A stretch of 64,000 bases of DNA from Caldicellulosiruptor bescii DSM 6725 (lineage in GTDB: Bacteria > Bacillota > Thermoanaerobacteria > Caldicellulosiruptorales > Caldicellulosiruptoraceae): the NCBI RefSeq assembly GCF_000022325.1, contig NC_012034.1, forward strand, positions 124,001-188,000, written 5' to 3'. How positions within the stretch are numbered: the stretch's first letter is position 1; every line of letters starts with the position of its first letter. The translations under genes and the position numbers were made by a program. The notes below the pieces were generated by a model, which made no database searches, was not told the origin of the DNA, and was given only the letters and a program-made list of their open reading frames with translations. Below, in pieces: positions 5,172 to 40,255 of the stretch.

Positions 5172-6689
5172 ATGAGCGAATATATTCTTGAGATGGTGCA
5201 CATAACAAAAGAATTTCCAGGTGTCAAAGCGCTTGATGATGTAACTTTTAAGGTTAAAAAAGGTGAAATCCACGCTCTTGTTGGTGAAAATGGTGCAGGA
5301 AAATCCACTTTGATGAAGATTTTAAGCGGTGTGTATCCGTATGGCACATACAGCGGCGATATTTTCATTGAAGGCAAGAAGCAGCATTTTAGAAATATTA
5401 AAGACAGCGAACATGCAGGTGTTGCAATAATTTACCAGGAGCTGACCCTTGTTAAAGGCATGACTGTAGGCGAGAATATCTTTCTTGGCAGAGAGCCTGT
5501 TGTAAACGGGATTATAAACTGGAATAAGGTCTATGCTGATTCTAAAAAACTTTTTGAAAAGCTAAACATTGAGATAGATGTTTATGAAAAAGTTGAAAAT
5601 TTAGGAATAGGCCAACAGCAGATGGTTGAGATTGCAAAGGCTATTTCAAAAGATAGCAAGATTTTAATTCTTGATGAGCCAACAGCAGCATTAACAGAGA
5701 GTGAAACAAGGCAGCTTTTCAGAATTTTAAAAGACCTCAAAAACCACGGGGTTACCTGCATATATATCTCTCACAGACTTGAAGAAATATTTGAGATAGC
5801 AGATACAGTAACAGTTTTAAGAGATGGTAAAACAATTTCAACAGACCCAATATCAAATCTCACTGAAGATGAGATAATAAAAAGAATGGTTGGGCGAGAA
5901 CTTACTCAAAGGTATCCAAAAGTGCCACACAAAGCAAAAAGAACAATTATGGAAGTTAGAAACTTTTCTGTTTATGACAAAGATAATCCAGAAAAGAAGA
6001 TAATAGATAATGTAAGCTTTGAGATAAAAGAAGGAGAAATTTTGGGTATATCAGGACTTATGGGGGCTGGCAGAACAGAACTTTTTATGAGCATATTTGG
6101 AGCATATCCAGGAAGAAAAGAAGGAGAAATTTGGCTTGAAGGGAAGAAAATAAGTATAAATAACCCCAGAGAGGCAATAGAACACGGGATATGTTATCTT
6201 TCAGAAGACAGAAAACGATATGGGCTTGTGCTCATGATGGATATAAAAGACAACATATTGCTTCCAAACTACCAGAAGTTTGCAAACGGTGGGATAATAA
6301 ATATTCCAAAGTCACTCAGCACAGCTTTGGATTATGTTGGTAAGCTCAGAATTAAAATAGCTTCACCTTTCCAGCAGGTTATGAATTTAAGCGGTGGTAA
6401 CCAGCAAAAGGTTATTATTGCTAAATGGCTTTTAGCAAATCCAAAAATATTAATTCTGGATGAGCCTACAAGAGGTATTGACGTTGGTGCAAAGTATGAA
6501 ATTTATAACCTTATGAACCAGTTTGTTGACCAGGGTGTAGGAATTGTTATGATTTCATCAGAACTTCCTGAGATTTTGGGTATGTCAGATAGAATACTTG
6601 TTATGCAAAAGGGCAAAATTGCAGGTGAGCTCATGGCCGAAGATGCAACTCAAGAAAAGATTATGACTTTAGCAACAGGAGGAAGATAG
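5172..6689 (+). CDS. xylG: sugar ABC transporter ATP-binding protein, duplicated domains
   Basis: 505 residues, the usual length for XylG/RbsA-type ATPases. First domain: Walker A GENGAGKST, Walker B ILILDEPTAAL, with a signature replaced by LGIGQQQMVEIAKA. Second domain: altered Walker A GLMGAGRTEL, intact signature NLSGGNQQKV and Walker B LILDEPTRGID. This asymmetry is normal for the family. It drives uptake through XylH using substrate from XylF. The start at 5172 follows GGTGAAGGTGG. The gap to xylH is 3 bases, so the two are co-translated. Confidence 0.93.
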   Translation: MSEYILEMVHITKEFPGVKALDDVTFKVKKGEIHALVGENGAGKSTLMKILSGVYPYGTYSGDIFIEGKKQHFRNIKDSEHAGVAIIYQELTLVKGMTVGENIFLGREPVVNGIINWNKVYADSKKLFEKLNIEIDVYEKVENLGIGQQQMVEIAKAISKDSKILILDEPTAALTESETRQLFRILKDLKNHGVTCIYISHRLEEIFEIADTVTVLRDGKTISTDPISNLTEDEIIKRMVGRELTQRYPKVPHKAKRTIMEVRNFSVYDKDNPEKKIIDNVSFEIKEGEILGISGLMGAGRTELFMSIFGAYPGRKEGEIWLEGKKISINNPREAIEHGICYLSEDRKRYGLVLMMDIKDNILLPNYQKFANGGIINIPKSLSTALDYVGKLRIKIASPFQQVMNLSGGNQQKVIIAKWLLANPKILILDEPTRGIDVGAKYEIYNLMNQFVDQGVGIVMISSELPEILGMSDRILVMQKGKIAGELMAEDATQEKIMTLATGGR

Positions 6690-6692
6690 GTT

Positions 6693-7814
6693 ATGAATTT
6701 GAAAAAAAACTTGCGAACTTACACTCTCATAATTGCAATTCTCCTTATATGGACAATATTTACAGTACTTACTGATGGGAATTTTCTAACACCAAGAAAT
6801 CTTTCAATGCTTGCAAGACAGATGGCAATCACAGCTCTTGTTGCAATTGGTATGGTATTTGTAATTGTTGCAGGGCACATTGACCTTTCGGTTGGTTCTG
6901 TTGTCGGATTTACTGGTGCTATTGCTGGTGTTTTGCAGGTTTGGAATGGGTGGTCAACTCCTGCTACAGTTATTGCAGTTTTGATAGTTGGTATTATAAT
7001 TGGTATATGGCAAGGATACTGGGTTGCATACAGGGGCGTTCCAGCATTCATTGTTACGCTGGCAGGAATGCTTGTGTTCAGAGGCGGTGTGCTTTTAGCA
7101 AGCAAGGGTATCACAATATCACCTTTTAAAGATAGTTTTAGATTTATCGGGCAAGGATATTTGAATAAAGCTTTGAGCATTGCATTTGGGGCTGTTTTAA
7201 TTGTTGGGTATCTTCTTTTAACAATTAGCCAGAGAAATAGAAGGAAAAAATACAACTTAGAAGTTTTGCCAATGGGCTTGGAGATTGCAAAAGCTGCAGT
7301 TGTAATTGCTCTTATTGTTGCATTTACGGGCGTTATGATAAGCTATGAGGGAATTTCTATTCCTGTTCTGATACTTGTTGTGTTTACAATCCTGCTAACA
7401 TTTGTTTCTCAGAACACAACATTTGGAAAATATGTGTATGCAATAGGTGGAAACAAAGAAGCAGCAAGTCTTTCGGGTATAAACATTAGAAATGTGACAA
7501 TGAAGATTTTCATTCTCATGGGATTTTTATCGGCACTGGCAGGAATTGTATTAACATCAAGACTTGACGCTGCAACATCTGGTGCTGGAACAAATATGGA
7601 GCTTGATGCAATTGCTGCTGCAATCCTCGGTGGAACAAGCACACTTGGCGGTGAAGGAACAGTTCCGGGTGCTATCATAGGTGCTTTAATTATGGCAAGC
7701 ATAGACAACGGTATGAGCCTTTTGAACTTGGAATATTCATATCAGCTGATTGTAAAAGGACTTGTTCTTGTATTTGCAGTTTGGCTTGATATTATGTCAA
7801 GAAAGAAAGCATAA
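6693..7814 (+). CDS. xylH: sugar ABC transporter permease
   Basis: 373 residues, almost entirely hydrophobic segments, BPD_transp_2 family as in RbsC/XylH. Visible family motifs are GHIDLSVGSVVGFTGA and AILGGTSTLGGEGTVPGAIIGA, near residues 65-80 and 310-330. It forms the membrane channel for the sugar, with XylG supplying ATP hydrolysis on the inside. It starts 3 bases after the xylG stop with GGAGGAAGATAGG as the ribosome binding site. A strong terminator lies about 55 bases downstream. Nothing looks damaged. Confidence 0.92.
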   Translation: MNLKKNLRTYTLIIAILLIWTIFTVLTDGNFLTPRNLSMLARQMAITALVAIGMVFVIVAGHIDLSVGSVVGFTGAIAGVLQVWNGWSTPATVIAVLIVGIIIGIWQGYWVAYRGVPAFIVTLAGMLVFRGGVLLASKGITISPFKDSFRFIGQGYLNKALSIAFGAVLIVGYLLLTISQRNRRKKYNLEVLPMGLEIAKAAVVIALIVAFTGVMISYEGISIPVLILVVFTILLTFVSQNTTFGKYVYAIGGNKEAASLSGINIRNVTMKIFILMGFLSALAGIVLTSRLDAATSGAGTNMELDAIAAAILGGTSTLGGEGTVPGAIIGALIMASIDNGMSLLNLEYSYQLIVKGLVLVFAVWLDIMSRKKA

Positions 7815-17261: not shown

Positions 17262-17849
17262 ATGGAAAAGAAAACTTTTGAAAATCCCTTTTTGATGGCA
17301 TTTGTAGTGTATCTGGTTATAAGCTTGGTTGTTATTTTTATTTTTATTGCTAAAATAAACAGATTAGAAGTATTCAAGACAAACTATAATGCCAAAATAC
17401 CCAATATCTTCTTTGCTGAATATTCGTACAAGCTCTCTGATGCAAAGGATATCCTAAAGCATCTTGTAGAAGACCAAAATATTGATTTTTCGTACTTGAG
17501 AGGGAGAGCAGAAGAATATTTTTTAAACAATACATTGACAATGTCAATTGCAAAAGAACCTGATATCTTTGAGGAAAAGGATATTAGCAGGATAATGAAT
17601 GAAAGGTATGGTCTTGTTGTTAAGGTGAGAGATTTTGTAAGAAAGATAAACGAAAGGATAATTGTGCCCAAAGACAGAAATCTTGCGCTGCAGATTAAAC
17701 CCGATATTGAAAAGATAATTTTTTTGCTTGACGCTTTGAATGAAGACTTGCAGTCGTTCAGAGATTCTAATACGAAAAAGGTATATAAGGAGTATGAAAA
17801 GGAGCTTTTGGAGTATTTTAAAAAGGTTGAGAAGAAAATTTTGCAATAA
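17262..17849 (+). CDS. hypothetical single-pass membrane protein
   Basis: 195 residues. One membrane segment at about 10-29 (LMAFVVYLVISLVVIFIFIA), then a charged, helical, coiled-coil-like region to the end (KRIVEKKILQ-type repeats of E and K). I do not recognise a family. It has a sound ribosome binding site (AGAGGAG, 17249-17255) and its own terminator, so it looks like a single-gene transcript. Position between an exporter unit and the CRISPR locus suggests nothing specific. Confidence 0.65.
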   Translation: MEKKTFENPFLMAFVVYLVISLVVIFIFIAKINRLEVFKTNYNAKIPNIFFAEYSYKLSDAKDILKHLVEDQNIDFSYLRGRAEEYFLNNTLTMSIAKEPDIFEEKDISRIMNERYGLVVKVRDFVRKINERIIVPKDRNLALQIKPDIEKIIFLLDALNEDLQSFRDSNTKKVYKEYEKELLEYFKKVEKKILQ

Positions 17850-17887
17850 AGTCAAGGGTAAATTGTACTAATATAAATCAATTCAAG

Positions 17888-17913
17888 GCTGCCTCGATAT
17901 GGCAGCTTTTTTT
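17888..17913 (+). terminator. intrinsic terminator
   Basis: GCTGCC (17888-17893), a 7-base loop, GGCAGC (17901-17906) and seven T residues. It ends the hypothetical membrane gene. Confidence 0.8.
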
Positions 17914-18060
17914 ATTATCTCTTGAAACATTAGATTATTTTTAAACACCAAAAAATTTTAAGTTTTTTCAAAAAGAAAGAAGGATTTTAGCAATTAATGC
18001 CGAAATATAATAATCAATGCAAATTGATGCTAATGTTAAAGAAAAAGGTGGGATATTTAC

Positions 18061-18768
18061 ATGAGAGCAAAATTTATCTTTGAAGTATCTGAAAAACAAG
18101 GACAGGTTCATGAACTTCCTATCTATTACAGAACCATTTTTATGAGTTTTTTAAAAAGAGCACTATCACTTTACAATCAAGAATATTTCAACAGGCTTTA
18201 CTGGTGGGAAGATAAAAAGAATAAATGGCAAAAGCCTTTTGTCTTTGCAGTAAATCTTCCCAATATGAACTTTCAAGATGATACCGTTTCTTTCAAAGGA
18301 GATATTTTGCTTAATCTTTCCACATCTGACTATGAGTTTTTTGTAAACATGTACAATAGCTTACTCAACAATCGTCTCTATCCATACCCTTTAACAGATA
18401 GTTGCAAGATTGCGCTTAAGCGAACGTATTTGGTAAGAGAGCCAGAAAAGTTTGACTCAAAAATGACCTTCAAAACGTTTGCTACAATTTTGATTGAAAA
18501 AAAAGAAGGCAAAAAAAAGGTGCCAGTTTTGCCTTTTGATGAAGGGTTTGAAGAGATTTTCAACGATGTTGTTGACTTTGAGATAAGAAATATTCGTATT
18601 TTGAGAGGACAAAACAAAGGACTGCAAAAAAGGTTTTATCTGAACTATAAGGGATGTAAACGATTGATACAATTTCTAGAGCTTTCGTTGTTTTTATACA
18701 GTCTTATCTGGATTATGGAGCTATTATTTGAAATAAATCAAATTTTCTCGGTCCTCTTCTCCTATTAA
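18061..18768 (+). pseudogene. truncated cas6 copy, 3' end replaced by a CRISPR repeat
   Basis: Residues 1-190 closely follow the intact Cas6 encoded at 18983 (shared blocks include LYWWEDKKNKWQKPF and LSTSDYEFFVN). Homology stops at LRGQNKGLQKR, exactly where a CRISPR repeat begins (18633). The frame then runs through the repeat (FYLNYKGCKR) and AT-rich sequence to a stop at 18768. About 70 C-terminal residues are lost, including the Gly-rich loop GLGFRRGQGFGF, so RNA cleavage is unlikely. Upstream DNA is also duplicated: both copies have GAAATATAATA about 50-60 bases before the start. So a promoter-cas6 unit was duplicated in tandem and the first copy was broken. A dominant or regulatory role of the remaining N-terminal RAMP fold cannot be excluded. 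Confidence 0.85.
18633..18729 (+). CRISPR. isolated CRISPR repeat-spacer-degenerate repeat inside the cas6 copy
   Basis: 18633-18661 matches the 29-base array repeat at 28 of 29 positions (GTTTTATCTG start, GGATGTAAAC end, one G to A in the middle). After 39 bases, GTCTTATCTGGATTATG at 18701-18717 matches 14 of the first 17 repeat positions. The 39-base interval is normal spacer length for this locus. It has the same orientation as the main array nine kilobases away. Confidence 0.75.
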
Positions 18769-18860
18769 GTTTCTTCTTCTCAGTTAGTATTTCAGTAATC
18801 TTTTTATCACGTAATACAACTTTAAAAATTTTTTATTTTGAGCTTGGATAGTTTAGTCAT
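18713..18860 (-). pseudogene. decayed minus-strand reading frame, family unknown
   Basis: On the minus strand an AGGAGG (18875-18870) precedes an ATG at 18860 encoding MTKLSKLKIKNF and then a stop. In another frame the sequence continues as VVLRDKKITEILTEKKK and KLNRRRGPRKFDLFQIIAP to a stop at 18713. This reads like a frameshifted remnant of a small basic protein. I do not recognise it. It occupies the gap between the broken and the intact cas6. Confidence 0.3.
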
Positions 18861-18982
18861 ATTCTTTGTCCTCCTTTAAAAATTTTATTTTGAAAAAGAA
18901 GGATTTATACAGTTAATGTCGAAATATAATAAACAATACAGTTTAACACAAGAATTTGTTAAAAAAGGAGAGATTGTTTGAG

Positions 18983-19768
18983 ATGAGAGCAAAATTTATA
19001 TTTGAAGTACATAATGGGTTTAATGAAACCAAGGAACTCCCAGTTTACTATAGAACCTTATTTATGGCTTTTTTAAAAAAAGCGCTATCATCATACAATG
19101 AGGAATATTTCAAAAGGCTTTATTGGTGGGAGGATAAAAAGAATAAGTGGCAAAAGCCGTTCGTTTATGCGGTAAATTTGCCCAACATGAATTTTTCAGA
19201 CGATAAAGTGCTGTTCAGGGGAGATATAGTTTTAAACCTTTCAACTTCCGATTATGAGTTTTTTGTCAATATCTACAATAGTTTAATCAGCAGCAAACTA
19301 TATCCTCATAAATTGGCTAATAACTGTGGAATCAAGCTCAAGAGGGCATACCTTATAAAAGAACCAGAACAATTTTCTTCAACTATGACTTTCAAAACCT
19401 TTTCACCTGTGCTGATTGAGAAAAAAGAGGGAGATGAGAAAATTCCAGTTTTGCCCTATGATGAAGGATTTGAAGAGGTTTTGAACGAAGTAATTGACTT
19501 TGAAATTAGAAATCTCAGAATTTTGCGAGGGCAAAATAGAGGACTTCATAAAAGAATTAGTTTCAGGCCAATAAATATCAAAAAGATTGTTGTAAAGCAT
19601 AAAATTTCTGAGTTTGTAGAAAACACCGGCAAAGAGATTATGTATCTTACAGGCTTTGGCGGTATATTTGAACTATCAGGACATCCTGATGATTTAAAAG
19701 AGATTTATCAAAATGGTCTTGGATTTAGAAGAGGGCAAGGATTTGGTTTTATTGAAGTGGTGAGGTAA
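18983..19768 (+). CDS. cas6: Cas6 CRISPR RNA endoribonuclease
   Basis: 261 residues from the ATG at 18983, which follows AAGGAGAG; the longer frame from 18956 is unlikely. Two RAMP-type ferredoxin folds, ending in the family Gly-rich loop GLGFRRGQGFGFIEV at about 243-257. A histidine at about residue 18-28 typical of catalysis is not obvious by eye, so I do not name the active residue. It cuts the long CRISPR transcript within each repeat and gives crRNAs for Cascade, and very probably for the type III-D complex too, which has no cas6 of its own here. First intact gene of the I-B operon. Confidence 0.9.
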   Translation: MRAKFIFEVHNGFNETKELPVYYRTLFMAFLKKALSSYNEEYFKRLYWWEDKKNKWQKPFVYAVNLPNMNFSDDKVLFRGDIVLNLSTSDYEFFVNIYNSLISSKLYPHKLANNCGIKLKRAYLIKEPEQFSSTMTFKTFSPVLIEKKEGDEKIPVLPYDEGFEEVLNEVIDFEIRNLRILRGQNRGLHKRISFRPINIKKIVVKHKISEFVENTGKEIMYLTGFGGIFELSGHPDDLKEIYQNGLGFRRGQGFGFIEVVR

Positions 19769-19800
19769 TAATATGAAAAATAAAAGGGGAATAGGAAAAA

Positions 19801-21441
19801 ATGAAGGAGAGGGTTTATTTAGGTGACTGGGCTTATAATGCAGGGATTATAGGCTTTATTGAGATTATGCTGGATGGAGAAGATATAGATTCTCAAAACA
19901 TTATAACTATTGGACTAAATTACATTGAATTTGAAAGAGAAAGTTTGCGAGGGTTTTCCGACAAGTTTTTTAAGAAAGCTTATCAGAGGTATCCAAGGAC
20001 AGATGAGATTATAAATGAAGGAAAGGATTTACTGGAACAACTAAATAACCGAAGTGATATAGATGAACAGCAGAGAGAGAGAATAAGAAAGTTTAAAGAC
20101 AGAGTTAATGGTTTTGCAAAACTGAGCAGGCTTGCGAAAGAATATGGATGCAGTTTGAATAAAAAGTTTAATAAAAATGAAGCAGTAGATTTTGTAAACA
20201 CGATAATAAAAATTTTGGAAGATAGAAAACAGGAGTTTATGGAAAACGATGTAAAGGTTTATTTGAACAGTGTTAGCTCAGTATATGGTGAAGCAAGCTT
20301 TCTAAATAGGCAAATTACAGAAAACCTAAAAGAAAAGTTTTACAACGACTTTGAAAAACCTATAATAGAGAAGGCCAATGAAGAGGACAAGAAGTATCCC
20401 TGTATATTTTGCGGTGAGAGAAAAGCTAAAAAAGGTGCAATGTTTAACACAGGGATTGTGAATTTTCTTGGAGCAAACAAAGATAACAAGAATTTCTTCT
20501 GGAACTTTAAGCCTCAGCTGCCTATATGCGAAATCTGTGAGCTTATGTATTTCTGTATTTTTGCGGCCCTGACTGAATTTAGAGTTGGACAAACCAAAAG
20601 GTTTTACTTTGTAGATAAAAGTACTTCTGTTTTGGAGCTATATCAAGCAAATAAATTGTTTATGGAAATAATGTCAAAAGAAGAAAATTTACTCAAAGAC
20701 AAAGGAATTTTGAACTTCATAAATGATTACTTATTGTTAAAACTGAGGGAAGAAAGCAAGTTTGCCCTAACTAACGTTCTTTTTGTTGAAATAGATCTCT
20801 CTTCAGTTGCTCCAAAGGTTTATGGCTTCAATATATCCAAGCAAAAGGCTGAATTTGTAACCTCCAATTATGAATTTTTTGAAAATGTTGTGGGAACCAA
20901 AATAACTGTGAAAGACAATACCTTGTATCCTTTCCACGAGCTTTTGCAGAGGTTTTTAAATAATACGCTAAGCTTTCAGTTTGTATCATTTTTAGAAAGT
21001 CAGTTTATAAGCTCTAAAAAAGTGAATTCAAAAATTAAAACAAACCTTTCACCCTATAGGCTTCAAATGTTTAACATTATCACATATAAATTTCTAAAAA
21101 GCATAAAAAGAGGTGAAATGTTGATGGATGAAAAAAGTTTGTGGAGGATGTACTTTTTTGGACAGGAGTTAAAGAAAACATTCTTAAAATCAGGTGCAGA
21201 AAACAAGATAACGAGCCTTGCATATCGTTTGATTTCAGCACTTAGAATTGGTGACATAAACACCTTTATGAATTTAGTTATTAGAACTTATATGAACTAT
21301 AACATGGAAGTACCGGCTTTATTTGTTTCGTGTATAAATGATAAAGACAATTTTTGCGCATTAGGATATAGCTTTGTAAACGGGCTTTTGGGAAGTGAAA
21401 GAGATGAAAGATTAGAAAATGAGGAGGATGAGGAGAAATGA
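19801..21441 (+). CDS. cst1: Cas8 large Cascade subunit (Cst1 type, CXXC-CXXC)
   Basis: 546 residues. The two zinc-binding pairs that define the Cst1/Cas8 CXXC-CXXC family are visible: CIFCGERKAKKG near residue 201 and CEICELMYFC near 242. The rest is poorly conserved, as usual for Cas8. It recognises the PAM and holds the complex together. It lies 32 bases after cas6 and overlaps cas7 by 4 bases. With Cst2 and Cas5t downstream this sets the subtype as I-B (formerly Tneap). Confidence 0.88.
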   Translation: MKERVYLGDWAYNAGIIGFIEIMLDGEDIDSQNIITIGLNYIEFERESLRGFSDKFFKKAYQRYPRTDEIINEGKDLLEQLNNRSDIDEQQRERIRKFKDRVNGFAKLSRLAKEYGCSLNKKFNKNEAVDFVNTIIKILEDRKQEFMENDVKVYLNSVSSVYGEASFLNRQITENLKEKFYNDFEKPIIEKANEEDKKYPCIFCGERKAKKGAMFNTGIVNFLGANKDNKNFFWNFKPQLPICEICELMYFCIFAALTEFRVGQTKRFYFVDKSTSVLELYQANKLFMEIMSKEENLLKDKGILNFINDYLLLKLREESKFALTNVLFVEIDLSSVAPKVYGFNISKQKAEFVTSNYEFFENVVGTKITVKDNTLYPFHELLQRFLNNTLSFQFVSFLESQFISSKKVNSKIKTNLSPYRLQMFNIITYKFLKSIKRGEMLMDEKSLWRMYFFGQELKKTFLKSGAENKITSLAYRLISALRIGDINTFMNLVIRTYMNYNMEVPALFVSCINDKDNFCALGYSFVNGLLGSERDERLENEEDEEK

Positions 21442-22367
21442 GTAAAAATGCAGGTATCACGATTACAGTTGTGTTTGAAGCGATGAGCTTGAATTATGGA
21501 GAGAGCGTAGGGAATATCTCTGAACTTAAAAAACTTACAAGAGAAAATAAAGTGTATACTTACATGTCAAGACAGGCATTGAGATATGAAAAACACAAAT
21601 TTATGCTGGAAAATTCAGAGTACAGGGAAGCGCCTGTAACAGGAGATGAGCAGGTTGTGCAGTTTACAAAAGAAGCAACAATCACACAATACCCCGAAAT
21701 AGATTTATTCGGTTATATGAAAACATCTGGGCAGGGGCAGGGTGCACAGACAAGGACGACAGTTGTCAAAATAACACCTGCTGTCTCTTTAGAAGAGTAT
21801 AAAAACGACATAGAATTTGCAACCAATTTAAATTTAGCAAAAAGAGCAAATACCAATCCAAACCCTTATCAGCTTGAACAGCATAAGTCTCTTTACACCT
21901 ATACTATTTCAGTTGATTTGGATAGATTAGGTAGAGACTTTGATGAGAAGGGAAATGTCATTGAAGAGGTGCCTATTGAAGAAAGACTGAAAAGACTTAA
22001 TACCCTCTTTGATGCAATAAAGTTTTTGAGCAGAGAAATCAAGGGAAGAAGAGAGAATTTAAGTCCACTTTTTGTAATAGGCGGACTTTATCCAGTTAAA
22101 AATTCCTTTTTCTTGAACAGAATTAAGATCATAAAAGATGACGTTGGCTATGCAATTGATGCAAGGTTACTTAATAGTACATGCGAGCTGACTCTTCCAA
22201 ATGGTAAGAAGGTTTATGATTATACTTTATTAGGATTGATAGAAGGATTTTTTGTAAATGAAGAACAACTCAAGAAACTTTTGCCGGATTCAAGTGGAAC
22301 AATTGATTACTTCTTTGAAACTTTAAAAGAGAAAGCACAGAAATATTATAAAGAGGGGACAGTTTGA
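21438..22367 (+). CDS. cas7: Cas7 backbone subunit (Cst2/DevR)
   Basis: 309 residues with the Cst2/DevR opening ITITVVFEAMSLNYGES and the block LYTYTISVDLDRLGRDFDE near residue 155. It forms the helical backbone along the crRNA in Cascade. Starts within the cas8 stop (4-base overlap) and ends overlapping the cas5 start, so translation is coupled across all three. Confidence 0.92.
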   Translation: MSKNAGITITVVFEAMSLNYGESVGNISELKKLTRENKVYTYMSRQALRYEKHKFMLENSEYREAPVTGDEQVVQFTKEATITQYPEIDLFGYMKTSGQGQGAQTRTTVVKITPAVSLEEYKNDIEFATNLNLAKRANTNPNPYQLEQHKSLYTYTISVDLDRLGRDFDEKGNVIEEVPIEERLKRLNTLFDAIKFLSREIKGRRENLSPLFVIGGLYPVKNSFFLNRIKIIKDDVGYAIDARLLNSTCELTLPNGKKVYDYTLLGLIEGFFVNEEQLKKLLPDSSGTIDYFFETLKEKAQKYYKEGTV

Positions 22368-23119
22368 AGATGTCTCAAAAACTTCTGAAGATTAAACTTT
22401 ATCAGCCTTTTGCAAACTTCAGAAAACCTTTTTCATATGGAATAGTAGATTCTTACCCTCTGCCTCCGCCTTCCACTGTAAAGGGTTGGCTTCACAATAT
22501 CTTGGGGGCAAAAAATGGAGAATATTACAAAATGGCTGTTTCTATTTGTGGAAAGTTTAATTCCATCGTTTATGACATTCAAAGAATCATAAAATTTGAC
22601 AGATTAAGAAAAGAAGATTCCTCTGCTCCAATTTTAAAAGATGTCTCAGCGAGGGTATTAAATGGCATTATATATGTGACCAACCTTGTTGATGTAGAGC
22701 TATGTATTCATGTAAATGCAGAACAAGAGGTTTTAAAAGGGATTTCTCTTGATATCTTTAATTCTTACTGGGGACTTGGAAGAAAAGAAGACTTGTTGAG
22801 AGTGGATGAAGTGAAGTTCTTTGAACCTCAAGTTGTAGAGTATAGGGAGTATGTAAAGCACAAACTTCCTGACATAGGGATGTATCTAAAGACAAGTACT
22901 GCGGAGAAGTTGAGGGTTGATGGAATTAGGTTCAGATTGAATAATCGTTATATAAAAACCAAAGATGGTCTTAGGATATTTACGGATAAAAAGGATGTAG
23001 TGTATTTTGAAAATCTTCAACATTTAAACCCTATAATGTCTGTTAGTGATAAGCTGTTAGTAGATGATGAAAATATTCTTATTGATTTAATAGGTGATGA
23101 TGAGTATGAAAGCCTATGA
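22364..23119 (+). CDS. cas5: Cas5 subunit (Cas5t)
   Basis: 251 residues from a TTG at 22364, or 249 from the ATG at 22370; GAGGGG at 22353-22358 is better spaced for the TTG. The N-terminus KIKLYQPFANFRKPFSYG with YPLPPPSTVKGWLHNILGA is the classical Cas5 RAMP pattern. It caps the 5' end of the crRNA in Cascade. Overlaps cas7 by 4 bases and the cas3 frame by about 14-26 bases. Confidence 0.92.
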   Translation: MKMSQKLLKIKLYQPFANFRKPFSYGIVDSYPLPPPSTVKGWLHNILGAKNGEYYKMAVSICGKFNSIVYDIQRIIKFDRLRKEDSSAPILKDVSARVLNGIIYVTNLVDVELCIHVNAEQEVLKGISLDIFNSYWGLGRKEDLLRVDEVKFFEPQVVEYREYVKHKLPDIGMYLKTSTAEKLRVDGIRFRLNNRYIKTKDGLRIFTDKKDVVYFENLQHLNPIMSVSDKLLVDDENILIDLIGDDEYESL

Positions 23120-25433
23120 GGATATAGATCTTTACGCAAAGAGATTTAAAACTGAGAAAGGTTATGAATACCAGACAATATACGAACATACAATGACACT
23201 ACTGCAGAATATGGAAAAATTATTCAAAGAGTATAGAGAGGAGATCGAAGAAGGTTTCCAAAAACTTCAGATTGACCTTGAGATGTTTAAATATTTGCTA
23301 AAATTAGCAATAATATATCATGATTTGGGCAAGGCGAATTCAAACTTTCAAAGAAAGATAAGAGACAAGACAAAATCAAATGAGGTACCTCAAGTAAAGT
23401 GCTTGTCTGTGGAGGTACCTCATAACTTTATCTCAATAGCTTTTGTGGCTTTGGAAGATGAGATAGACAAGGGGAATATCAGCCCAGAAGATTTTGAAAA
23501 TTTGCTTTTTGCTATTGCATTTTCGCATGACAGGGGTTTTGATTTCAACTACCAATATTTTGAAAAATACATTTGTGAGGATGTTTCAAAGTATTTAACT
23601 AATAAGACATTACTTCCTTTGTTTAAAGAACTTCCTTCATTTCCTACCAAAGATGAAATAGAGAAGAGTTCAAACTATGTATATAGAACTATTGACTGGT
23701 TGAAAGAGGTCATGCTCAAAAGTTATACCGACCTTTACAATAAAAACACAATTATGAGAATTCTTTTGAAAGGTTTTCTTCATAGACTTGATCATTCAAG
23801 TTCTGCAGGAATTAGTACAGAAGAAGGAAAGATTACAGATTTTTCTCATAAGGTTGAGAGCTACTTGAAAGAAAAGGGGAATTTCGTTGGTTTTAAAGAA
23901 TTTCAGCTAAAAGCTTTAGATTTCTCAAACCAGAATGTTATTTTATTTGCTCCCACAGGCAGTGGTAAGACAGAGTTTGGCTTAAACTGGGCAGGCAGAA
24001 GCAAATTAATTTACACTCTTCCAATTCGTGTTTCAATCAACGCAATGTACGAAAGACTGGCGAAAATTTTTGGTAGTAATAAGGTTGGAATATTGCATTC
24101 TGACAGTATGATTTATCTGCTTGAAAAGTATTCACAATCAGCTGAAGATGTCCAAGAGTTAGAATCCTTATTTGACAATGTAAACCTTGCGAGGAATTTA
24201 AGTTTTCCGATAATTGTAACAACCGGCGACCAGATTTTTACATCTGCTTTAAAATGGCCCGGTTTTGAGAAAATATATTCGTTATTCTTATACTCAAAGA
24301 TTATAATTGATGAGCCACAAAGCTATTCTCCAGAGTCTTTGGCAATTATAATAAAGACCTTAGAAGAAATAGTAAATTTAAATGGACGATTCTGCTTGAT
24401 GAGTGCCACTGTAAATCCTCTTGTACTAAAGTATCTTGGAGATATTTCTGAATATTTACAGGCATATTCAGATGAAGAATTAAAAAAATGCTGGTCGCAT
24501 GTTGTTTCGGTCAAACCACTTTCTATTTTAGATTGTGTAGATGAAATTGTAAATTGTGGGAAGCAACAAAATGTACTTGTAATATGCAACACAGTAAGAA
24601 GGTCACAGGAAGTTTATAAGGCTATAAAAGAAAGCATAGGAAATTCTGATGATGTCCCGGTTGAACTTTTGCATTCAAGATTTTTGGAAGGGCAAAGAAG
24701 GCAAAAAGAACATTTTATTCTTTCAAACCAGAGAAAAAATAGTATTGTAATTTCAACCCAGCTTGTAGAAGCGTCACTTGACATAGATTATGACGTTTTG
24801 TTTACGGAACTGGCTTCTGCAGATTCATTGCTGCAGCGAATGGGGAGAGTATACAGGAAAAGACCATATGAGGGGCAAAAACCAAATGTTATTATCCTAA
24901 CAAAGGAACCAAGCGGAATTGGAAGAGTTTATCAGAAAGAAATTGTTACTAGAACAGAAGAGTTTTTGAAAAGGTTTGACGGAAGAAAAATTACAGAATA
25001 TGACAAAAAAGAGCTAAATGAATATGCCTACGATGTTGAGGTACTTTCAAACACTAATTTCATGAAGAGTTTCAAAAAAGCATATGAACTTTTGAAGTTA
25101 GGATTTAAAGCAGATAGAAAGATTGAAGCTCAAAAGATTTTTAGGGATGTAGTTACAGTTGAAGGTATACCGAGGAAGGTATTCGAGGTAAATGAAGAAA
25201 CAATCAGAGAGTGCCTGAAGAGAATAGGTTCAAAATCTTTAAGCCCTATTGAGAAACTGCAGCTAATTTCAGATGTTCGAAAGTACACAGTTACAGTTCC
25301 GGTGTACTTTTTCGCAAAAGGTGGAGCGAGTGAGTATAGCAAAAAGCTGGGTATATTCATTTTAAATTGTGATTATGACGACGAGTTGGGCTTGTTACCA
25401 CCTAAGGAATCAGAAAAAGATGATATATGGTAA
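23094..25433 (+). CDS. cas3: Cas3 nuclease-helicase
   Basis: Up to 779 residues; four starts lie within 12 bases (GTG 23094, ATG 23097, 23100, 23106) and AGGTGAT favours 23106. HD nuclease domain with H32, YHDLGK near 76, a further His in EVPHNF near 107 and SHDRG near 142. Superfamily 2 helicase with APTGSGKT near 285, IIDEPQSY near 403, MSATVN near 434 and QRMGRVYRKRP near 580. All catalytic motifs are present. It degrades DNA marked by Cascade. Unlike some I-B loci, HD and helicase are one chain. Confidence 0.95.
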   Translation: MMMSMKAYEDIDLYAKRFKTEKGYEYQTIYEHTMTLLQNMEKLFKEYREEIEEGFQKLQIDLEMFKYLLKLAIIYHDLGKANSNFQRKIRDKTKSNEVPQVKCLSVEVPHNFISIAFVALEDEIDKGNISPEDFENLLFAIAFSHDRGFDFNYQYFEKYICEDVSKYLTNKTLLPLFKELPSFPTKDEIEKSSNYVYRTIDWLKEVMLKSYTDLYNKNTIMRILLKGFLHRLDHSSSAGISTEEGKITDFSHKVESYLKEKGNFVGFKEFQLKALDFSNQNVILFAPTGSGKTEFGLNWAGRSKLIYTLPIRVSINAMYERLAKIFGSNKVGILHSDSMIYLLEKYSQSAEDVQELESLFDNVNLARNLSFPIIVTTGDQIFTSALKWPGFEKIYSLFLYSKIIIDEPQSYSPESLAIIIKTLEEIVNLNGRFCLMSATVNPLVLKYLGDISEYLQAYSDEELKKCWSHVVSVKPLSILDCVDEIVNCGKQQNVLVICNTVRRSQEVYKAIKESIGNSDDVPVELLHSRFLEGQRRQKEHFILSNQRKNSIVISTQLVEASLDIDYDVLFTELASADSLLQRMGRVYRKRPYEGQKPNVIILTKEPSGIGRVYQKEIVTRTEEFLKRFDGRKITEYDKKELNEYAYDVEVLSNTNFMKSFKKAYELLKLGFKADRKIEAQKIFRDVVTVEGIPRKVFEVNEETIRECLKRIGSKSLSPIEKLQLISDVRKYTVTVPVYFFAKGGASEYSKKLGIFILNCDYDDELGLLPPKESEKDDIW

Positions 25434-25462
25434 AAACTACAAAAAGAGAGTGAGCTTTCAAA

Positions 25463-25978
25463 ATGTCAGAAGAAATTCAAGAACTGCAAGACCTCAAATT
25501 CCAAGGCATTAAAATCAACTACTTTTATGTTTGCAAAAGAAAACTTTGGCTATTTAGCAAAAACATCACATTTGAAAATCAATCAGACAAAGTATTGCTT
25601 GGCAGGATTTTGCATGAGTATTCTTATCCCAAGGAAAAGACAAAAGAGGTCTTAATAGACAATCTTATAATGATTGACATTCTTTCTGACGGGGCAGTAA
25701 GAGAGGTAAAATACAGCAGCAGAATGAAAGAGGCAGATATAATGCAGGTTATGTATTATCTTTACTATCTAAAACAAAAAGGGATAGAAAAGCAAGGTAT
25801 AATCAACTATCCAAAAGAACGCAGGAAAGAAATCTTACAGCTTACACCTGAATATGAACAAAAAGTAAAACAGGCGCTAAGTGAGATAGAAAAAATAACT
25901 TCTCAAGCAACTCCACCGCCGGCTACAAAGCAAAAAATATGCAAATCTTGTGCGTACCTTGAGTTTTGCTGGGGGTAA
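25463..25978 (+). CDS. cas4: Cas4 exonuclease
   Basis: 171 residues, standard length. Cysteines C24 and the C-terminal cluster C160, C163, C169 (CKSCAYLEFC) form the iron-sulfur site. RecB-type nuclease residues fall in GRILHEYSYP, IDILSDG and REVKYSSRMK, so the E-V-K motif is intact. It trims prespacers and helps choose their PAM and orientation. Sits between cas3 and cas1, overlapping the long cas1 frame. Confidence 0.93.
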   Translation: MSEEIQELQDLKFQGIKINYFYVCKRKLWLFSKNITFENQSDKVLLGRILHEYSYPKEKTKEVLIDNLIMIDILSDGAVREVKYSSRMKEADIMQVMYYLYYLKQKGIEKQGIINYPKERRKEILQLTPEYEQKVKQALSEIEKITSQATPPPATKQKICKSCAYLEFCWG

Positions 25979-25983
25979 AAGCT

Positions 25984-26964
25984 ATGCAAAAAACACTTTA
26001 CATTACCTCAAACGGAAGACTCAGAAGAAAAAACAATACCTTGTACTTTGAGACAGAGACTGAAAAAAGGTCAATTGATATCGAAAACATTGAACAAATT
26101 CACATCTTTGGTGAAGTCGATTTGAATACCAAGACTTTGAATTATATCTCTCAATACGGCATAGTTCTTCACTTTTACAACTATTACGGATTTTATTTGG
26201 GGAGTTTTCTGCCTCGAAAGAAAAACATTTCAGGAGATGTTGTTGTTCGGCAAGCACTTCATTATCTTGATAGGGAAAAGAGAATCTTCTTGGCATACTG
26301 TTTTGTCGAATCAGCGGTTTATCATATGATGAGAAATTTAAGAGAAAGAAAAAAAACAGAGGCTTTTTTGAATGCAATTGAAGATGAATGGGAAAATGGC
26401 AGGTTTAATATTTCAAGCATATCAGAGCTTATGGGGCTTGAGGGAAGAGTGAGGAATATTTACTATTCGTCTTTCAATCAGTTTTTGCCAGAAGACTTTT
26501 ACATGGAAAAGCGTGAAAAAAGACCACCGACAAATCCGATAAATGCTTTGATTTCATTAGGAAATAGCCTAATTTATAGCACAGTTTTAACAGAGATTTA
26601 CCATACTCAGCTTGACCCAAGCATAAGTTTTTTGCATGAACCAAGTGAAAAGAGGTTTTCATTAAGTCTTGATATATCTGAAATTTTCAAACCTCTGATT
26701 GTGGATAGTGTAATTTTCAAGCTTTTGAATAATCATCAGCTTACACTTGAACACTTCGATGAGGATTTGAATTATTGCTACTTGAATCAAGATGGAAAAA
26801 AGATTTTTATCAATGAACTAAAAAACAAGCTTGAGACAACAGTTCGTCACAGACAGCTAAATAGAAATGTTTCCTATAAGGGATTTATAAGACTTGAGTG
26901 TTACAAGCTGATAAAACATTTTATAGGCGATCAGGTTTACTCGCCACTTAAGGCGTGGTGGTAA
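25984..26964 (+). CDS. cas1: Cas1 integrase
   Basis: 326 residues from the ATG at 25984, which follows GGGGGT; a longer in-frame start at 25966 sits inside cas4. Beta-sandwich N-terminus (KTLYITSNGRLRRKNNTLYF), then the helical catalytic domain with Glu in SELMGLEGRVRN, His in ISFLHEPSEKR and Asp in SLSLDISEIFKP, the metal site for spacer integration. Works with Cas2 and Cas4. An unusual gap of about 190 bases separates it from cas2. Confidence 0.95.
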   Translation: MQKTLYITSNGRLRRKNNTLYFETETEKRSIDIENIEQIHIFGEVDLNTKTLNYISQYGIVLHFYNYYGFYLGSFLPRKKNISGDVVVRQALHYLDREKRIFLAYCFVESAVYHMMRNLRERKKTEAFLNAIEDEWENGRFNISSISELMGLEGRVRNIYYSSFNQFLPEDFYMEKREKRPPTNPINALISLGNSLIYSTVLTEIYHTQLDPSISFLHEPSEKRFSLSLDISEIFKPLIVDSVIFKLLNNHQLTLEHFDEDLNYCYLNQDGKKIFINELKNKLETTVRHRQLNRNVSYKGFIRLECYKLIKHFIGDQVYSPLKAWW

Positions 26965-27653: not shown

Positions 27654-30600
27654 GTTTTATCTGAACTATGAGGGATGTAAACTAAAGAAAGAGGGAAAGT
27701 AAATGGCTTTGATAGATTGTTTTATCTGAACTATGAGGGATGTAAACCGCATTAAGCCACTGCAAGGTAGAATTTGACCAATTGTTTTATCTGAACTATG
27801 AGGGATGTAAACTGTATTTGGACTTTAAAATTGTCATTTGCAATATCAGTTTTATCTGAACTATGAGGGATGTAAACGTATGATACAAATGGTAATGAGA
27901 TTAGATTGTATCTGTTTTATCTGAACTATGAGGGATGTAAACCAATATCCATATTTGCGAGGTGTAGATGGTGTCGAGTTTTATCTGAACTATGAGGGAT
28001 GTAAACACACTTAAAAAACTTAATGTAGCATTCATTGGTGGAGTTTTATCTGAACTATGAGGGATGTAAACTTTTATTTTCCTTGTTCGTGTATTAAAAT
28101 CATATTCAGTTTTATCTGAACTATGAGGGATGTAAACATTGAAAGCAAACCACAGATTGTGAATGCTGACCAATGTTTTATCTGAACTATGAGGGATGTA
28201 AACTAAAATTTCTATATCGCTAAATATAACAAGCATATAGTTTTATCTGAACTATGAGGGATGTAAACACGCTTCTAACGCAACTGTTTATGACGTTCAT
28301 AGGTGGTTTTATCTGAACTATGAGGGATGTAAACTCAGTTAATCATTTTAAGCGCTTGGAGCCTTTTTGATGTTTTATCTGAACTATGAGGGATGTAAAC
28401 TTGAGAACTTTTATATTAACTCTATCAACTAACCCAGGTTTTATCTGAACTATGAGGGATGTAAACTTAAACCAACTAAGTATGCTAAATCAAAAGGCAG
28501 CGAGTTTTATCTGAACTATGAGGGATGTAAACACAATCTTGTTGGAATATTTTCAAACAGAGCAACTGTTTTATCTGAACTATGAGGGATGTAAACAAGA
28601 TGATGTAGCACCATATGTCGCACTTGGCTTTAGGTTTTATCTGAACTATGAGGGATGTAAACTGAAAACAAGAAAGATTTTAATATCAAGCCACTGGACG
28701 TTTTATCTGAACTATGAGGGATGTAAACTCAACAATTTTATAGCCAAGTGGTGGAATTCCACCAGTTTTATCTGAACTATGAGGGATGTAAACCTATGAT
28801 TATTATAACAAAATGTTCTGTTCCTTAAAGTTTTATCTGAACTATGAGGGATGTAAACCGTGTATCCCAAGTTTAACGCACATCTCATTCACCTTGTTTT
28901 ATCTGAACTATGAGGGATGTAAACTTGATAATATATTTGACTTTGCTCATCACTTTACAGGTTTTATCTGAACTATGAGGGATGTAAACGCACCAAACAA
29001 GCTCAAAATAGGTATTGCCTGCCTTAGTTTTATCTGAACTATGAGGGATGTAAACAGTGATTTCTTTATTGAGTTCCTTTTCTATTTCTGCGTTTTATCT
29101 GAACTATGAGGGATGTAAACACAAAAATGGTAGAAAACAACAGAAAGTATAAATTGTGTTTTATCTGAACTATGAGGGATGTAAACCTTTGCAAAGATAA
29201 AAAATGCTGGTTGTGTGGAGGTGTTTTATCTGAACTATGAGGGATGTAAACCCTTTCTTTTTTTTTCTAACAGACCAGCCCTACTCGGGTTTTATCTGAA
29301 CTATGAGGGATGTAAACGTTGTCAATGAAAATTGGTGCTGAGAAGTTGTAATATTGTTTTATCTGAACTATGAGGGATGTAAACGATTTCTGATGGAAAT
29401 CAGGATATTAGCCTCTGGTAGTTTTATCTGAACTATGAGGGATGTAAACTGTCTGTTTCAAGGCGTCTTATAAGCTTATCTTCTGGTTTTATCTGAACTA
29501 TGAGGGATGTAAACCTTTTTCTGTGCAGCATTGTAAGCCTGCATTACAATTGTTTTATCTGAACTATGAGGGATGTAAACGCTAAACCACCAGCTAATAA
29601 TGTTGCTGTTGCCACATGTTTTATCTGAACTATGAGGGATGTAAACGTGCATGTGCATGAGCCGATTCAGAAGGGTTAATCCCTGTTTTATCTGAACTAT
29701 GAGGGATGTAAACTGAATTTCATGTATCATCAAATAATGTCTCAAATAAGTTTTATCTGAACTATGAGGGATGTAAACCTGGAAGCACAAGGGATTATAA
29801 AATACGAAATTGATAATGTTTTATCTGAACTATGAGGGATGTAAACATTCGCATTGATGAGATTAACAGAACAATGATAGCAGGTTTTATCTGAACTATG
29901 AGGGATGTAAACGTCGAATACTCTAAATCTTCAACTGTATTATAAAACCGTTTTATCTGAACTATGAGGGATGTAAACATTCGCATTGATGAGATTAACA
30001 GAACAATGATAGCAGGTTTTATCTGAACTATGAGGGATGTAAACGTCGAATACTCTAAATCTTCAACTGTATTATAAAACCGTTTTATCTGAACTATGAG
30101 GGATGTAAACCAATTATATGCTTGTTATATTTAGCGATATAGAGTTTTATCTGAACTATGAGGGATGTAAACGCTTGAACTATAAACTGTTTTGTCGCTG
30201 GTGAAAGTGGTTTTATCTGAACTATGAGGGATGTAAACAATAATCAGTAGGGCCCATTATTTTTTCGCCAAAAGTTTTATCTGAACTATGAGGGATGTAA
30301 ACCTCTATTTTTTTATTTTTAGAAGGGGGAGTAGTGATGGTTTTATCTGAACTATGAGGGATGTAAACCTTGCTAAAACTGTAGTTTTTTTGCTTGTAGG
30401 TGACTGTTTTATCTGAACTATGAGGGATGTAAACCAGGTAGGATATTTCCCTTTGTATGCTGCAGGTTATAGTTTTATCTGAACTATGAGGGATGTAAAC
30501 TTAATTCAAGCAGTTTTTTAGAATTCTGTTCAAGCGGTTTTATCTGAACTATGAGGGATGTAAACTTTATAGAAAGCGCTATCATATCGATTGCGTGCAA

Positions 30601-33600
30601 AGTTTTATCTGAACTATGAGGGATGTAAACGCAGTCTTTGTCAAAAACTTTTATAAACATCTTCATGTTTTATCTGAACTATGAGGGATGTAAACACGGC
30701 AACTGAAGCAAAAGCAAGATATGATGAGTATGTTTTATCTGAACTATGAGGGATGTAAACTTTTACTGTTTGATAATGTGCAAATATTCTGTATATGGTT
30801 TTATCTGAACTATGAGGGATGTAAACCGGAAAACAAATTTGTACTTCCAATCATTCTGCGGAGTTTTATCTGAACTATGAGGGATGTAAACCACAGATAT
30901 TGTTGAACTTCTGGGAATTCTTTTGCTGTTTTATCTGAACTATGAGGGATGTAAACTCAGGTAAATTCGGAATTGTACCCATATCATAATCCGTTTTATC
31001 TGAACTATGAGGGATGTAAACGAAATATCCCTAAAACCATGTCAGAACTCTTCATTGGTTTTATCTGAACTATGAGGGATGTAAACCAAGAATCTTTATC
31101 TGCTCTAGTAGGAAGCTTTGCTGTTTTATCTGAACTATGAGGGATGTAAACCAAGAATCTTTATCTGCTCTAGTAGGAAGCTTTGCTGTTTTATCTGAAC
31201 TATGAGGGATGTAAACGCTTTATCCGGGCAACTGGGATACTCAAACGATTGAAGTTTTATCTGAACTATGAGGGATGTAAACGCGAAAGTTTTGATTGAT
31301 AAAGAAGGTACTTTATGGGTTTTATCTGAACTATGAGGGATGTAAACTGTTTCAATAATATTCGTTCCTGTCGTATCATAGTAAGTTTTATCTGAACTAT
31401 GAGGGATGTAAACTCTATACCTTCTATTGAAATTAACATATTGTGACCTGTTTTATCTGAACTATGAGGGATGTAAACTGGTGGGTGGCATAATGATACT
31501 ATAGTTACTGTTGAAGGTTTTATCTGAACTATGAGGGATGTAAACATTGCAAAGTGTAACGTTAGTTTAAAAATATGTGAATGTTTTATCTGAACTATGA
31601 GGGATGTAAACGGAGGTAAGACAGTTCAAGCTAGAAGACATTCAGGTAGTTTTATCTGAACTATGAGGGATGTAAACCTTTTTTCTTGCAATCTTCATAT
31701 GTTGAGCTTTGGTAAGTTTTATCTGAACTATGAGGGATGTAAACCTTTTTTCTTGCAATCTTCATATGTTGAGCTTTGGTAAGTTTTATCTGAACTATGA
31801 GGGATGTAAACTTCGGACCAGTTGCCGAGCTGGAACGACATAGCAGAGTTTTATCTGAACTATGAGGGATGTAAACTAAGTTTTCTTGAATTCATTGCTT
31901 CACCACCTTTCTTGTTTTATCTGAACTATGAGGGATGTAAACAAACAAAGGAGATTCAGCAACAGATTGAAGTAGTAAGTTTTATCTGAACTATGAGGGA
32001 TGTAAACGTGAAAGGCCGAAACAAACGTCAACGAATTGACCCTGGTTTTATCTGAACTATGAGGGATGTAAACCACTTTTGCTAAAACACCGTCAATGGT
32101 CAGGTAGCCGTTTTATCTGAACTATGAGGGATGTAAACGGTTTTCCCCAGAACAACAAACCGACATTCTTTTCTGTTTTATCTGAACTATGAGGGATGTA
32201 AACAATATGGGAAGAGGTAGGTACAGAGAAAATAATTAAGTTTTATCTGAACTATGAGGGATGTAAACAAAGGTTGGGTATTTACTTGGCTTGCCTTTAA
32301 CGATAGTTTTATCTGAACTATGAGGGATGTAAACTGTGCTTATTCGTCGTCAACCTGATGTGCCTTCTAAGTTTTATCTGAACTATGAGGGATGTAAACT
32401 TTCTTTTTAGAAATATTAAAAATATGGATTGACTTGTTTTATCTGAACTATGAGGGATGTAAACTCAACCCATGGCTGAACCAATCGCTTACCAATAGCA
32501 GGTTTTATCTGAACTATGAGGGATGTAAACTAGACGCCCAAACATAATAAAGTGCTTCAGGTATTTCGTTTTATCTGAACTATGAGGGATGTAAACTATT
32601 CTGCCGAGTTCATGTTGTATCACCATCTGCTGGTTTTATCTGAACTATGAGGGATGTAAACTTCTTGTTCAGTTGCTACTATTCTTACTACATTACCTGT
32701 TTTATCTGAACTATGAGGGATGTAAACAAAAAGTTTGCAAGTTTAATTTTAATGTCATCAGGTGTTTTATCTGAACTATGAGGGATGTAAACAATATGGA
32801 ATGGTCAGAGGGTATCAAGAGTATATTAGTTTTATCTGAACTATGAGGGATGTAAACTTTTTATACTAAAATTTTGCACAGAAATAGGGCAAAGTTTTAT
32901 CTGAACTATGAGGGATGTAAACGAAATACAGCGCAATAATAACTATATCCTCTGCTTTTGTTTTATCTGAACTATGAGGGATGTAAACGATTTCTGATGG
33001 AAATCAGGATATTAGCCTCTGGCAGGTTTTATCTGAACTATGAGGGATGTAAACTTGAACTTGTATTTTAGATAATAAGTGTCTGTTGCATGTTTTATCT
33101 GAACTATGAGGGATGTAAACAAAGATATAAAAAAATTTAAAGACAAAGCATACTTCGTTTTATCTGAACTATGAGGGATGTAAACTGTTCAACCTACTTT
33201 CTTTTGTGAGTATATCTCTATTGTTTTATCTGAACTATGAGGGATGTAAACCAGAGCCTGCGGGGGAGGTCTGGAGGGGGAAAGCCTGTTTTATCTGAAC
33301 TATGAGGGATGTAAACTCTTGAGTAGGTCCCATTATCTTTTCCCCAAAATCGTTTTATCTGAACTATGAGGGATGTAAACACCAAAAGTAATTCCTCATA
33401 TTAATGTGTTTCACTTGTTTTATCTGAACTATGAGGGATGTAAACCGAAATCATGAACAGGATAAAAATAATTAATATAGCTGTTTTATCTGAACTATGA
33501 GGGATGTAAACTTTTTCAATTAATTTATCTTGGTCACCTAATTTATCGTTTTATCTGAACTATGAGGGATGTAAACGTCATTTACATTGAACTTTTTCAA

Positions 33601-36445: not shown

Positions 36446-36591
36446 TTAGCACGAAAATAGATTGCATTCAAAAATGATTTTGAACATAAACAATAGAAGA
36501 TTCTCAATCATTTAATAAGAAAAAAAGACAATAACAAACTAACCGATGCTAAAAAGGCATCAGCTGGAATTATTATAAATTTAATCAAGAT

Positions 36592-37838
36592 TTAAACTGA
36601 TTGGGGGCTTATAACTTCTAAACCAAACTTTTTTGCTTCGCTGATAAGTCGATTAAAACGAATTATCTCTTGTTTCTTTCGAACTTCACTAAAAACTTTT
36701 TCATCATAGTCAGTGTCATTCTTAAGCATATTATAGATTATAACCAGTAATTTTCTAGCAAGAGCTACTATTGCTTTCTTTGCCCCTCGGCGCTGCTTTA
36801 CTTTCCAATACCACGTAGCAAGGTATGAATCTCTTACGCGAGTTAGACTCCATGCAACTTCACACAGTATCCTCTTGATGTAGGTATTACCCTTTGTTAC
36901 TCGAGTGGACTTTTTTTTCCTGCACTTTCATTATTGCCAGGACTTAATCCTGCCCATGAACAAATATGTTCTGCAGTTTTAAATTTGCTCATATCTATGC
37001 CAATTTCAGCAATTATTGCAGCAGCCGCCGTTTTATCTATACCTGGTATGCTATCCAATTGCTCAATCTGCCTTTTAAATTTTTCAAGTTCAAAATTAAT
37101 ATTTCCTTCTATTTCACTAAGATGTTCATATGTCTCATCTAAATGCTTAAGCAGAAGCCTTAAAAATTCACGCTGATGTCTGTTCATCCTGCCATTTACC
37201 GACAGTTTTATCTCTTGTAATTTATTGCGTGCTCTTGTTTTTACATAACTTTCAACTTCTTCTGCGGTTATACTGCCATGTTCTGCTATGTGGTTTATTA
37301 TTGCTCTTCCAGATACACCAAATATATCTGTGAGAAAATTTGAAAGTTTAAAACCACAGCTTTGAAGATGGTTTTCAATGCGGTTTTTCTGTGATGATAG
37401 TTCTTCTATTATGCTTTTACGATATCTTGTAAGGTCTCTTAATTCTCTTATTGTTTGCGCTGGAATAAAACTCCCATTTAAAAGTCCTGCCCTCAAAAGA
37501 GTTGCAATTTATTTTGCATCTTTCATATCAGTCTTTTTGCCAGGAACATTTTTCATATGCCTTGCATTGGCAACTATAACTACCATAGTGCCGTCCAAAG
37601 CACTTTCCAAAATATTATAAACAGGTTGCCAGTAGACTCCTGTGCTTTCCATTGCAACATGACGGCAGTTTTCTGATTCAAGCCATGCTTTTAATTCTTC
37701 AAGCCCTGGCAGTAAAGTGGAAAATGTTCTTATTGTTTTTTGGGGTTTATCGTCATGGACAGAGCCTTTAAGCAAGCAGGCTACAACAGTTTCTTTGTGA
37801 ACATCCAATCCACAACAAATCTCAAGTAAATCTTGCAT
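36592..37838 (-). pseudogene. IS110-family transposase, two disabling mutations
   Basis: N-terminal RuvC-like DEDD domain from 37838: CCGLDVHKETVVACLL, VAMESTGVYWQPV and KTDMKDAK. An in-frame TAA at 37511-37509 stands where a Trp codon is normal. The frame continues through the Transposase_20 domain (GIDKTAAAAIIAEIG, HICSWAGLSPGNNESAGKK). At 36911-36918 a run of eight A residues on the coding strand shifts the frame: nine A would give KKKSTRVTKGNTYIKR and continue to a stop at 36592. So the full chain would be about 415 residues, with one nonsense and one frameshift change. No longer active unless recoded. Confidence 0.88.
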
Positions 37839-38030
37839 ATTATTATCTCCTATTCTGAATTTATTACAGGGATGATTACCTGAGAAAATAAGAAGTTTAG
37901 CACCCGTGCTGTTCCCATATCAGGATAATATGGGGCGACAATTGGCTGGGCTCAAAGGTAATCAGGTTAGGTTAATGATCGAGGTATTATATCCATCAAC
38001 AATAAATCAACCTTTGCCCTGTTAACTTTA
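37839..38030 (-). ncRNA. candidate IS110 bridge RNA region
   Basis: About 190 non-coding bases upstream of the transposase start, on its strand, where IS110-group elements encode their bridge RNA. Nested pairing is visible: outer arms GATTACC (37874-37880) and GGTAATC (37957-37963), and an inner hairpin CCCATAT (37914-37920) with ATATGGG (37928-37934) around a 7-base loop. The coding-strand loop region reads TTATCCTGA, near the TTATCTGAA of the invaded CRISPR repeat; this similarity is suggestive only. Confidence 0.4.
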
Positions 38031-38207
38031 GTTTAACAAAAAACAAATCTTTTGCAACCTTTTCTTAAGTCTATTTTCATCAATGGTTGTGCTTTCCTAA
38101 GCATGATGGTTAATGATAAAATAAAAATGTACTGAAAGTGGAATATAATGATGTACAAAATTGTACATTGATATGATATCCTTTCTCATAGTGAAGAGGG
38201 ATATCAA

Positions 38208-39410: not shown

Positions 39411-39430
39411 AGAAAGGAGAAAATCTAAAA

Positions 39431-40195: not shown

Positions 40196-40255
40196 GTTTA
40201 TTTTTTGTACATTTTTATTTTCGATTTTTTGTTCATTTTGATATTGACATTTACA

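Follow-up and report, generated by a model that had tools for sequence, protein, structure and literature searches.

The window analysed here, a 64,000-nucleotide stretch of the Caldicellulosiruptor bescii DSM 6725 genome, carries a type I-B CRISPR-cas locus with two adjacent copies of cas6. The first copy (cas6') is truncated and is followed by a single CRISPR repeat, a spacer, a second repeat that is degenerate, and an insertion-sequence (IS) relic; the second is intact and precedes the effector genes, cas4, cas1 and the resident CRISPR array (Table 1). The locus was compared with the cas6 loci of 11 other congeneric genomes, one genome per species, in which two lineages of cas6, denoted A and B, are distinguished.

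Table 1. Features of the cas6-cas1 region and the resident array, with positions counted from the first nucleotide of the window
Feature	Position	Strand	Remarks
Uncharacterised ORF, native left flank	17262-17849	+	Compared by tblastn
Upstream/promoter region of cas6'	17976-18060	+	TATAAT-like box; native-lineage match runs through the region
cas6'	18061-18632	+	N-terminal ~190 codons of native B-lineage cas6; frame reads through the repeat to 18768 (235 aa ORF)
Left joint	18631-18635		5-bp microhomology AGGTT common to native cas6 and donor array; exact joint ambiguous over these bases
CRISPR repeat	18633-18661	+	28/29 to the resident consensus GTTTTATCTGAACTATGAGGGATGTAAAC; 29/29 to the G002 terminal repeat
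Trailer-end spacer of donor array	18662-18700	+	39 nt; 38/39 to G002 and 35/39 to G011, same place
Truncated terminal repeat of donor array	18701-18718	+	14/18 here; 15/18 in G002 and G011
Insertion-sequence relic	18719-~18876		Multi-copy elements of G002, G005, G006, G009 and G000 are ~75% identical
Promoter/leader of donor-type cas6	18877-18982	+	Kept 5' of cas6 in all compared genomes
Intact cas6, donor lineage A	18983-19768	+	TIGR01877 above cutoff, full length
cas8b, cas7, cas5, cas3 (type I-B effector genes)	19801-25433	+	Family names from profile matches
cas4 and cas1	25463-26964	+	Donor type to ~26,821, native type beyond
Right crossover, homologous	26822-26862		In the 3' end of cas1; from diagnostic sites
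Resident CRISPR array	27654-41451	+	Interrupted by insertion sequences; A at position 17 in none of its full repeats

The cas6' reading frame aligns with the intact Cas6 up to about residue 190, as stated in a preliminary description of this DNA, and the similarity between the two genes at the DNA level ends at 18632. The TIGR01877 profile matches cas6' at profile positions 4-119 of 200 alone, with a score below the cutoff, and no Cas6_C domain was found in a search of the fragment, which, judging by its sequence, is probably inactive. The upstream regions of the two copies are also alike, in agreement with the earlier observation (17976-18021 versus 18895-18940, 85% over 46 nt). A tandem duplication of cas6, after which recombination with the resident array disrupted one copy, would account for two adjacent copies with similar upstream DNA, and an array with the same repeat indeed lies 9 kb away. 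The two copies, however, come from different lineages. They share 67% amino acid identity with each other but 94% and 96-97%, respectively, with proteins from different genomes. At the sites where the lineages differ consistently, cas6' carries the B state at 19 of 21 (1 A, 1 other), and the intact gene carries the A state at 29 of 30 (no B, 1 other). In the maximum-likelihood tree of cas6, cas6' groups with G001 inside the B lineage and the intact cas6 groups with G002 and G011, the split between A and B having a support of 100. Furthermore, as described below, the repeat next to cas6' has the variant base of a donor array and continues into 8 kb of donor sequence. Duplication is therefore highly improbable as the origin of the pair.

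The DNA on the two sides of the cas6' break has correspondingly different affinities. On the native side, the sequence is 95% identical to G001 over 17328-18635 and 99% identical over the tile 18001-18500; the uncharacterised ORF upstream of cas6' has 82% amino acid identity to the ORF that immediately precedes native-type cas6 in G001 and G009, and no homologue of it was found by tblastn beside donor-type cas6. From 18631 to ~26,840, the window is 89-99% identical to G011 (91-99%, mostly 95-99%, in the tiles covering 18631-25500, and 89-93% in cas4-cas1), and G002 has the two ends of this block in common with it, with 96% identity over 18631-19761. The products of cas8b, cas7, cas5 and cas3 are 94-99% identical to those of G011 and 69-84% identical to the same-type homologues in B genomes. 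Outside the block, the left outer flank (5172-7814) shows 98% identity to G006, 94% to G005 and 83% to G011, the values for B genomes being 98, 94 and 92%; the right outer flank (59000-63900) shows 96% identity to G006, G005 and G001, and 78% to G002 and G011. A native B-type cas6 occupies this site in G001, G005, G006, G009 and G010. Because the flanks and cas6' are of the B type and the block is of the A type, the block is foreign and cas6' is the remnant of the native gene. Of the two copies, therefore, the truncated one is native and belongs to a lineage other than that of the intact gene, which arrived with the block.

The preliminary description placed a switch from cas6 to a 28/29 match to the array repeat at 18633, followed by a 39-base interval of spacer length and a degenerate second repeat. 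All these elements are confirmed, with the joint refined to an ambiguity over the bases AGGTT (18631-18635) and the second repeat ending at 18718, where the IS relic starts. Outside arrays, the next-best matches to the repeat in the window are partial (20-22/29) and lie at or near the resident array. The sole mismatch of the window repeat to the resident consensus is a G-to-A change at position 17, which is also present in the terminal repeat of G002 and in none of the 152 resident repeats. The end of this repeat runs into GATTGATAC. The resident spacers are mostly 35-38 nt long, and two of them have 39 nt, as this spacer does. The second repeat matches in 15 of its first 20 nt and in 17 of 29 overall; when the local sequence is shuffled, a score of 15/20 at the distance of a spacer turns up in approximately 1 of 10,000 trials. 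In the IS relic, the left-hand sequence of the related multi-copy elements is missing, and the second repeat is degenerate because the terminal repeat had already been cut at 18718 by this relic. An Rfam search yielded a sub-threshold CRISPR repeat match alone, on the opposite strand.

The entire string consisting of the repeat, the 39-nt spacer, the truncated repeat, the IS relic and the cas6 promoter is found directly 5' of cas6 in both G002 and G011. In G002, the repeat of this string is the last full one in an array of 8 repeats, and in G011, it ends an array of 4 repeats (3 variant repeats and this one). Given the shared string and the variant base of G002, the window repeat was brought in at the left margin of the donor block: it is the trailer-end unit of an array of the donor lineage and was not inserted into cas6. 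The earlier proposal that the break reflects recombination with an array rather than random decay is right; however, cas6' did not arise by duplication and decay of its neighbour, and the array is that of the donor. Off-target spacer integration by Cas1-Cas2, which would have put the repeat into cas6, would explain why there is a repeat at the joint but neither the 8 kb of donor sequence nor the shared terminal spacer. Integration outside an array duplicates the target site, not a CRISPR repeat. The probability of this route is practically negligible; it is already contradicted, as duplication is by the diagnostic sites and the tree. As suggested in the preliminary description, the spacer was searched against array spacers and phages, and no convincing match emerged: against phages, plasmids and viral contigs, there were either no matches or matches with E values of at least 1, and the array spacers showed no resemblance, with 21-22 matching positions at best.

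The two ends of the block differ in kind. At the left joint, the sequence is CTGCAAAAAAGGTTGACTTT in the native cas6 of G005, TTGTTCAGGTTTTATCTGAAC in the G002 array and CTGCAAAAAAGGTTTTATCTGAAC in the window, such that the G005 gene matches through 18635 and the G002 array from 18631 on. About 1% of random joints would be expected to show microhomology of at least 5 bp; the 5 bp assume a G002-like preceding donor spacer, and with the array sequence of G011 the microhomology falls to 3 bp. A repeat-like sequence that could have guided recombination inside cas6 was sought, and the best candidates matched at 15-18/29, which is the chance level, away from the joint. The cut at the first bases of the repeat thus follows from the microhomology, and special targeting of repeats is not needed. 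At the right end, the diagnostic sites of cas1 are of the A type up to 26821, of the B type from 26822 with few exceptions, and clearly of the B type from 26862.

Taken together, these data make it very probable that the cas module was replaced horizontally, by in situ exchange, and that the seam between cas6' and the repeat is the left end of this replacement, formed illegitimately. The two parentages, the left joint and the origin of the repeat in the array tail are direct observations; that both ends of the block were made in one event, with uptake by transformation-like recombination, is what we infer from them. Under this scenario, an ancestor with a native B-type cas6 at the site would have taken up A-type DNA, G011-like in general and G002-like at its left end, that comprised the array end followed by cas6, cas8b, cas7, cas5, cas3, cas4 and cas1. 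The right end would have been resolved by ordinary homologous recombination inside cas1, at ~26,822-26,862; at the left end, AGGTT would have joined the native cas6, at about codon 191, to the donor array where its last full repeat begins. This would have cost the native cas6 its final quarter and left, of the donor array, one repeat, one spacer and the already IS-truncated terminal repeat. A later, second deletion that trimmed the donor array to the joint may also have occurred.

A two-step history differs from this scenario in the order of steps alone: the whole donor array and cas block would have been inserted beside a native cas6 that was still intact, and both the end of this cas6 and the array would have been deleted afterwards. 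Shrinkage of CRISPR arrays through deletion is common, and the donor relatives have full arrays 5' of cas6. This history is otherwise uncontradicted but requires an extra event, and no intermediate, such as a longer donor array behind the native cas6, was found among the compared genomes; we consider it a realistic possibility, although less probable than replacement in a single event. Alignment of related genomes, proposed earlier as the way to find the ancestral state, shows either a full native cas6 or an array followed by the foreign cas6, and never the hybrid; the joint of cas6' with the repeat is present in 1 of the 12 genomes, the one studied here. A cas6 copy that ends in unrelated sequence was not seen in the relatives.

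A different reading assigns a function to the unit as a CreR-type modulatory mini-CRISPR, whose RNA would be made from the cas6' promoter, be cut by Cas6 and direct the type I-B complex to the cas6 promoter, repressing it. Such regulation by CreR has been described for type I-B, I-E and V-A systems (PMC12737573, PMC13131331). The layout fits, with a solo full repeat and a degenerate second repeat located just 5' of the promoter of the cas operon; the unit has in common with CreR mini-CRISPRs and CreA (PMC12737573, PMC9458426) an ectopic repeat and a degenerate repeat beside a type I-B cas operon. Furthermore, the cas6 promoter contains, at 18902, the sequence GATTTATACAGTT, with which the start of the spacer (GATTGATACAATT) agrees in 11 of 13 bases. 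In a null set of 1586 array spacers, however, 2.1% match the cas6 promoter at the level of 11/13 or better, and a mismatch at position 5 of the seed leaves an unbroken seed of 4 nt. In G002 and G011, which hold the unit, the match drops to 9/13, a level that 54-58% of the array spacers reach, so that promoter complementarity in these relatives is at the chance level. Unlike the known CreR and CreA, the unit is the trailer end of a real, longer array in G002 and G011, where it is quite ordinary, and its promoter complementarity is imperfect and not conserved. Tested against the null set and the two phylogenetic controls, CreR regulation is not supported, and we regard it as very unlikely. We attach a similarly low probability to the variant in which the last repeat unit of the donor, stranded between two cas6 promoters, would have been co-opted as a CreR-like guide, with the dead native cas6 promoter driving its expression and the incoming cas operon being repressed. 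One base of the target promoter, A here versus T in G002 and G011, does improve the match to the spacer in this genome. The stranded unit might, in principle, be the source of a single crRNA-like RNA. Most likely, the cas6' fragment and the relic repeat unit have no function.

The resident array downstream of cas1 has a history of its own. It is split within one repeat, the first 10 nt of which (GTTTTATCTG) lie at 36437-36446 and the last ~18 nt of which end at 40272; between the two halves are an IS110-type transposase in two ORFs on the minus strand (36897-37838) and an IS21-type istA/istB pair (38208-40195). A partial repeat at 41490 that retains the first 19 nt looks like the truncated trailer-end repeat of this array, and a lone 21/29 copy is located 3 kb beyond it, at 44508. 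After the array, a 472-aa protein (44734-46152) contains a Card1-type CARF domain (PF23400, E 1.5e-5), which suggests that an accessory effector of type III is encoded close to the type I-B locus.

The preliminary description knew of no standard process that puts a whole repeat inside a cas gene. At the present locus, the repeat is the edge of an incoming block, and the processes involved are known: the shuffling in situ of CRISPR effector modules, for which cas6, cas1, cas2 and cas4 serve as attractor genes and which has been reviewed in work on CRISPR evolution (PMC6452270), and homology-facilitated illegitimate recombination, which uses 3-10 bp of microhomology (PMC6382021). As in the former process, effector genes were replaced at a fixed site: the flanks and the module have different closest relatives, the breakpoints are in cas6 (18631-18635) and cas1 (~26,822-26,862), and cas8-cas7-cas5-cas3 genes of clearly different types are present at the same site in the relatives. 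The difference is that here cas6, cas4 and most of cas1 were swapped too, and a fragment of the native cas6 was fused to the end of the donor array. The likeness to the latter process consists in one homologous end, in cas1, and another with microhomology in the 3-10 bp range; homology-facilitated illegitimate recombination is one RecA-dependent event in the course of DNA uptake, and the present case differs in being a natural scar, read from the end state of the sequence.

Across the genus, in genomes G001 to G011, the interval between the conserved cas6 and cas4-cas1 genes holds effector genes of several clearly different types, which indicates that modules are often exchanged at this site; the cas6-cas4 interval looks like a hot spot of such exchange. 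In G011, a second cas6, of the B type, is present at another locus (C1:333395-334178), with a broken reading frame and followed by a different cas7-cas5-cas3-cas4 set of its own. Swaps of cas modules are already known, and this locus is an unusually clear but ordinary example. It shows, at the level of single bases and with the two breakpoints resolved, how a type I-B cas module passed from one lineage to another within a genus, and it calls for caution: a repeat found against a truncated cas gene can stem from the end of a donor's array and not be a new kind of regulatory or recombination element.
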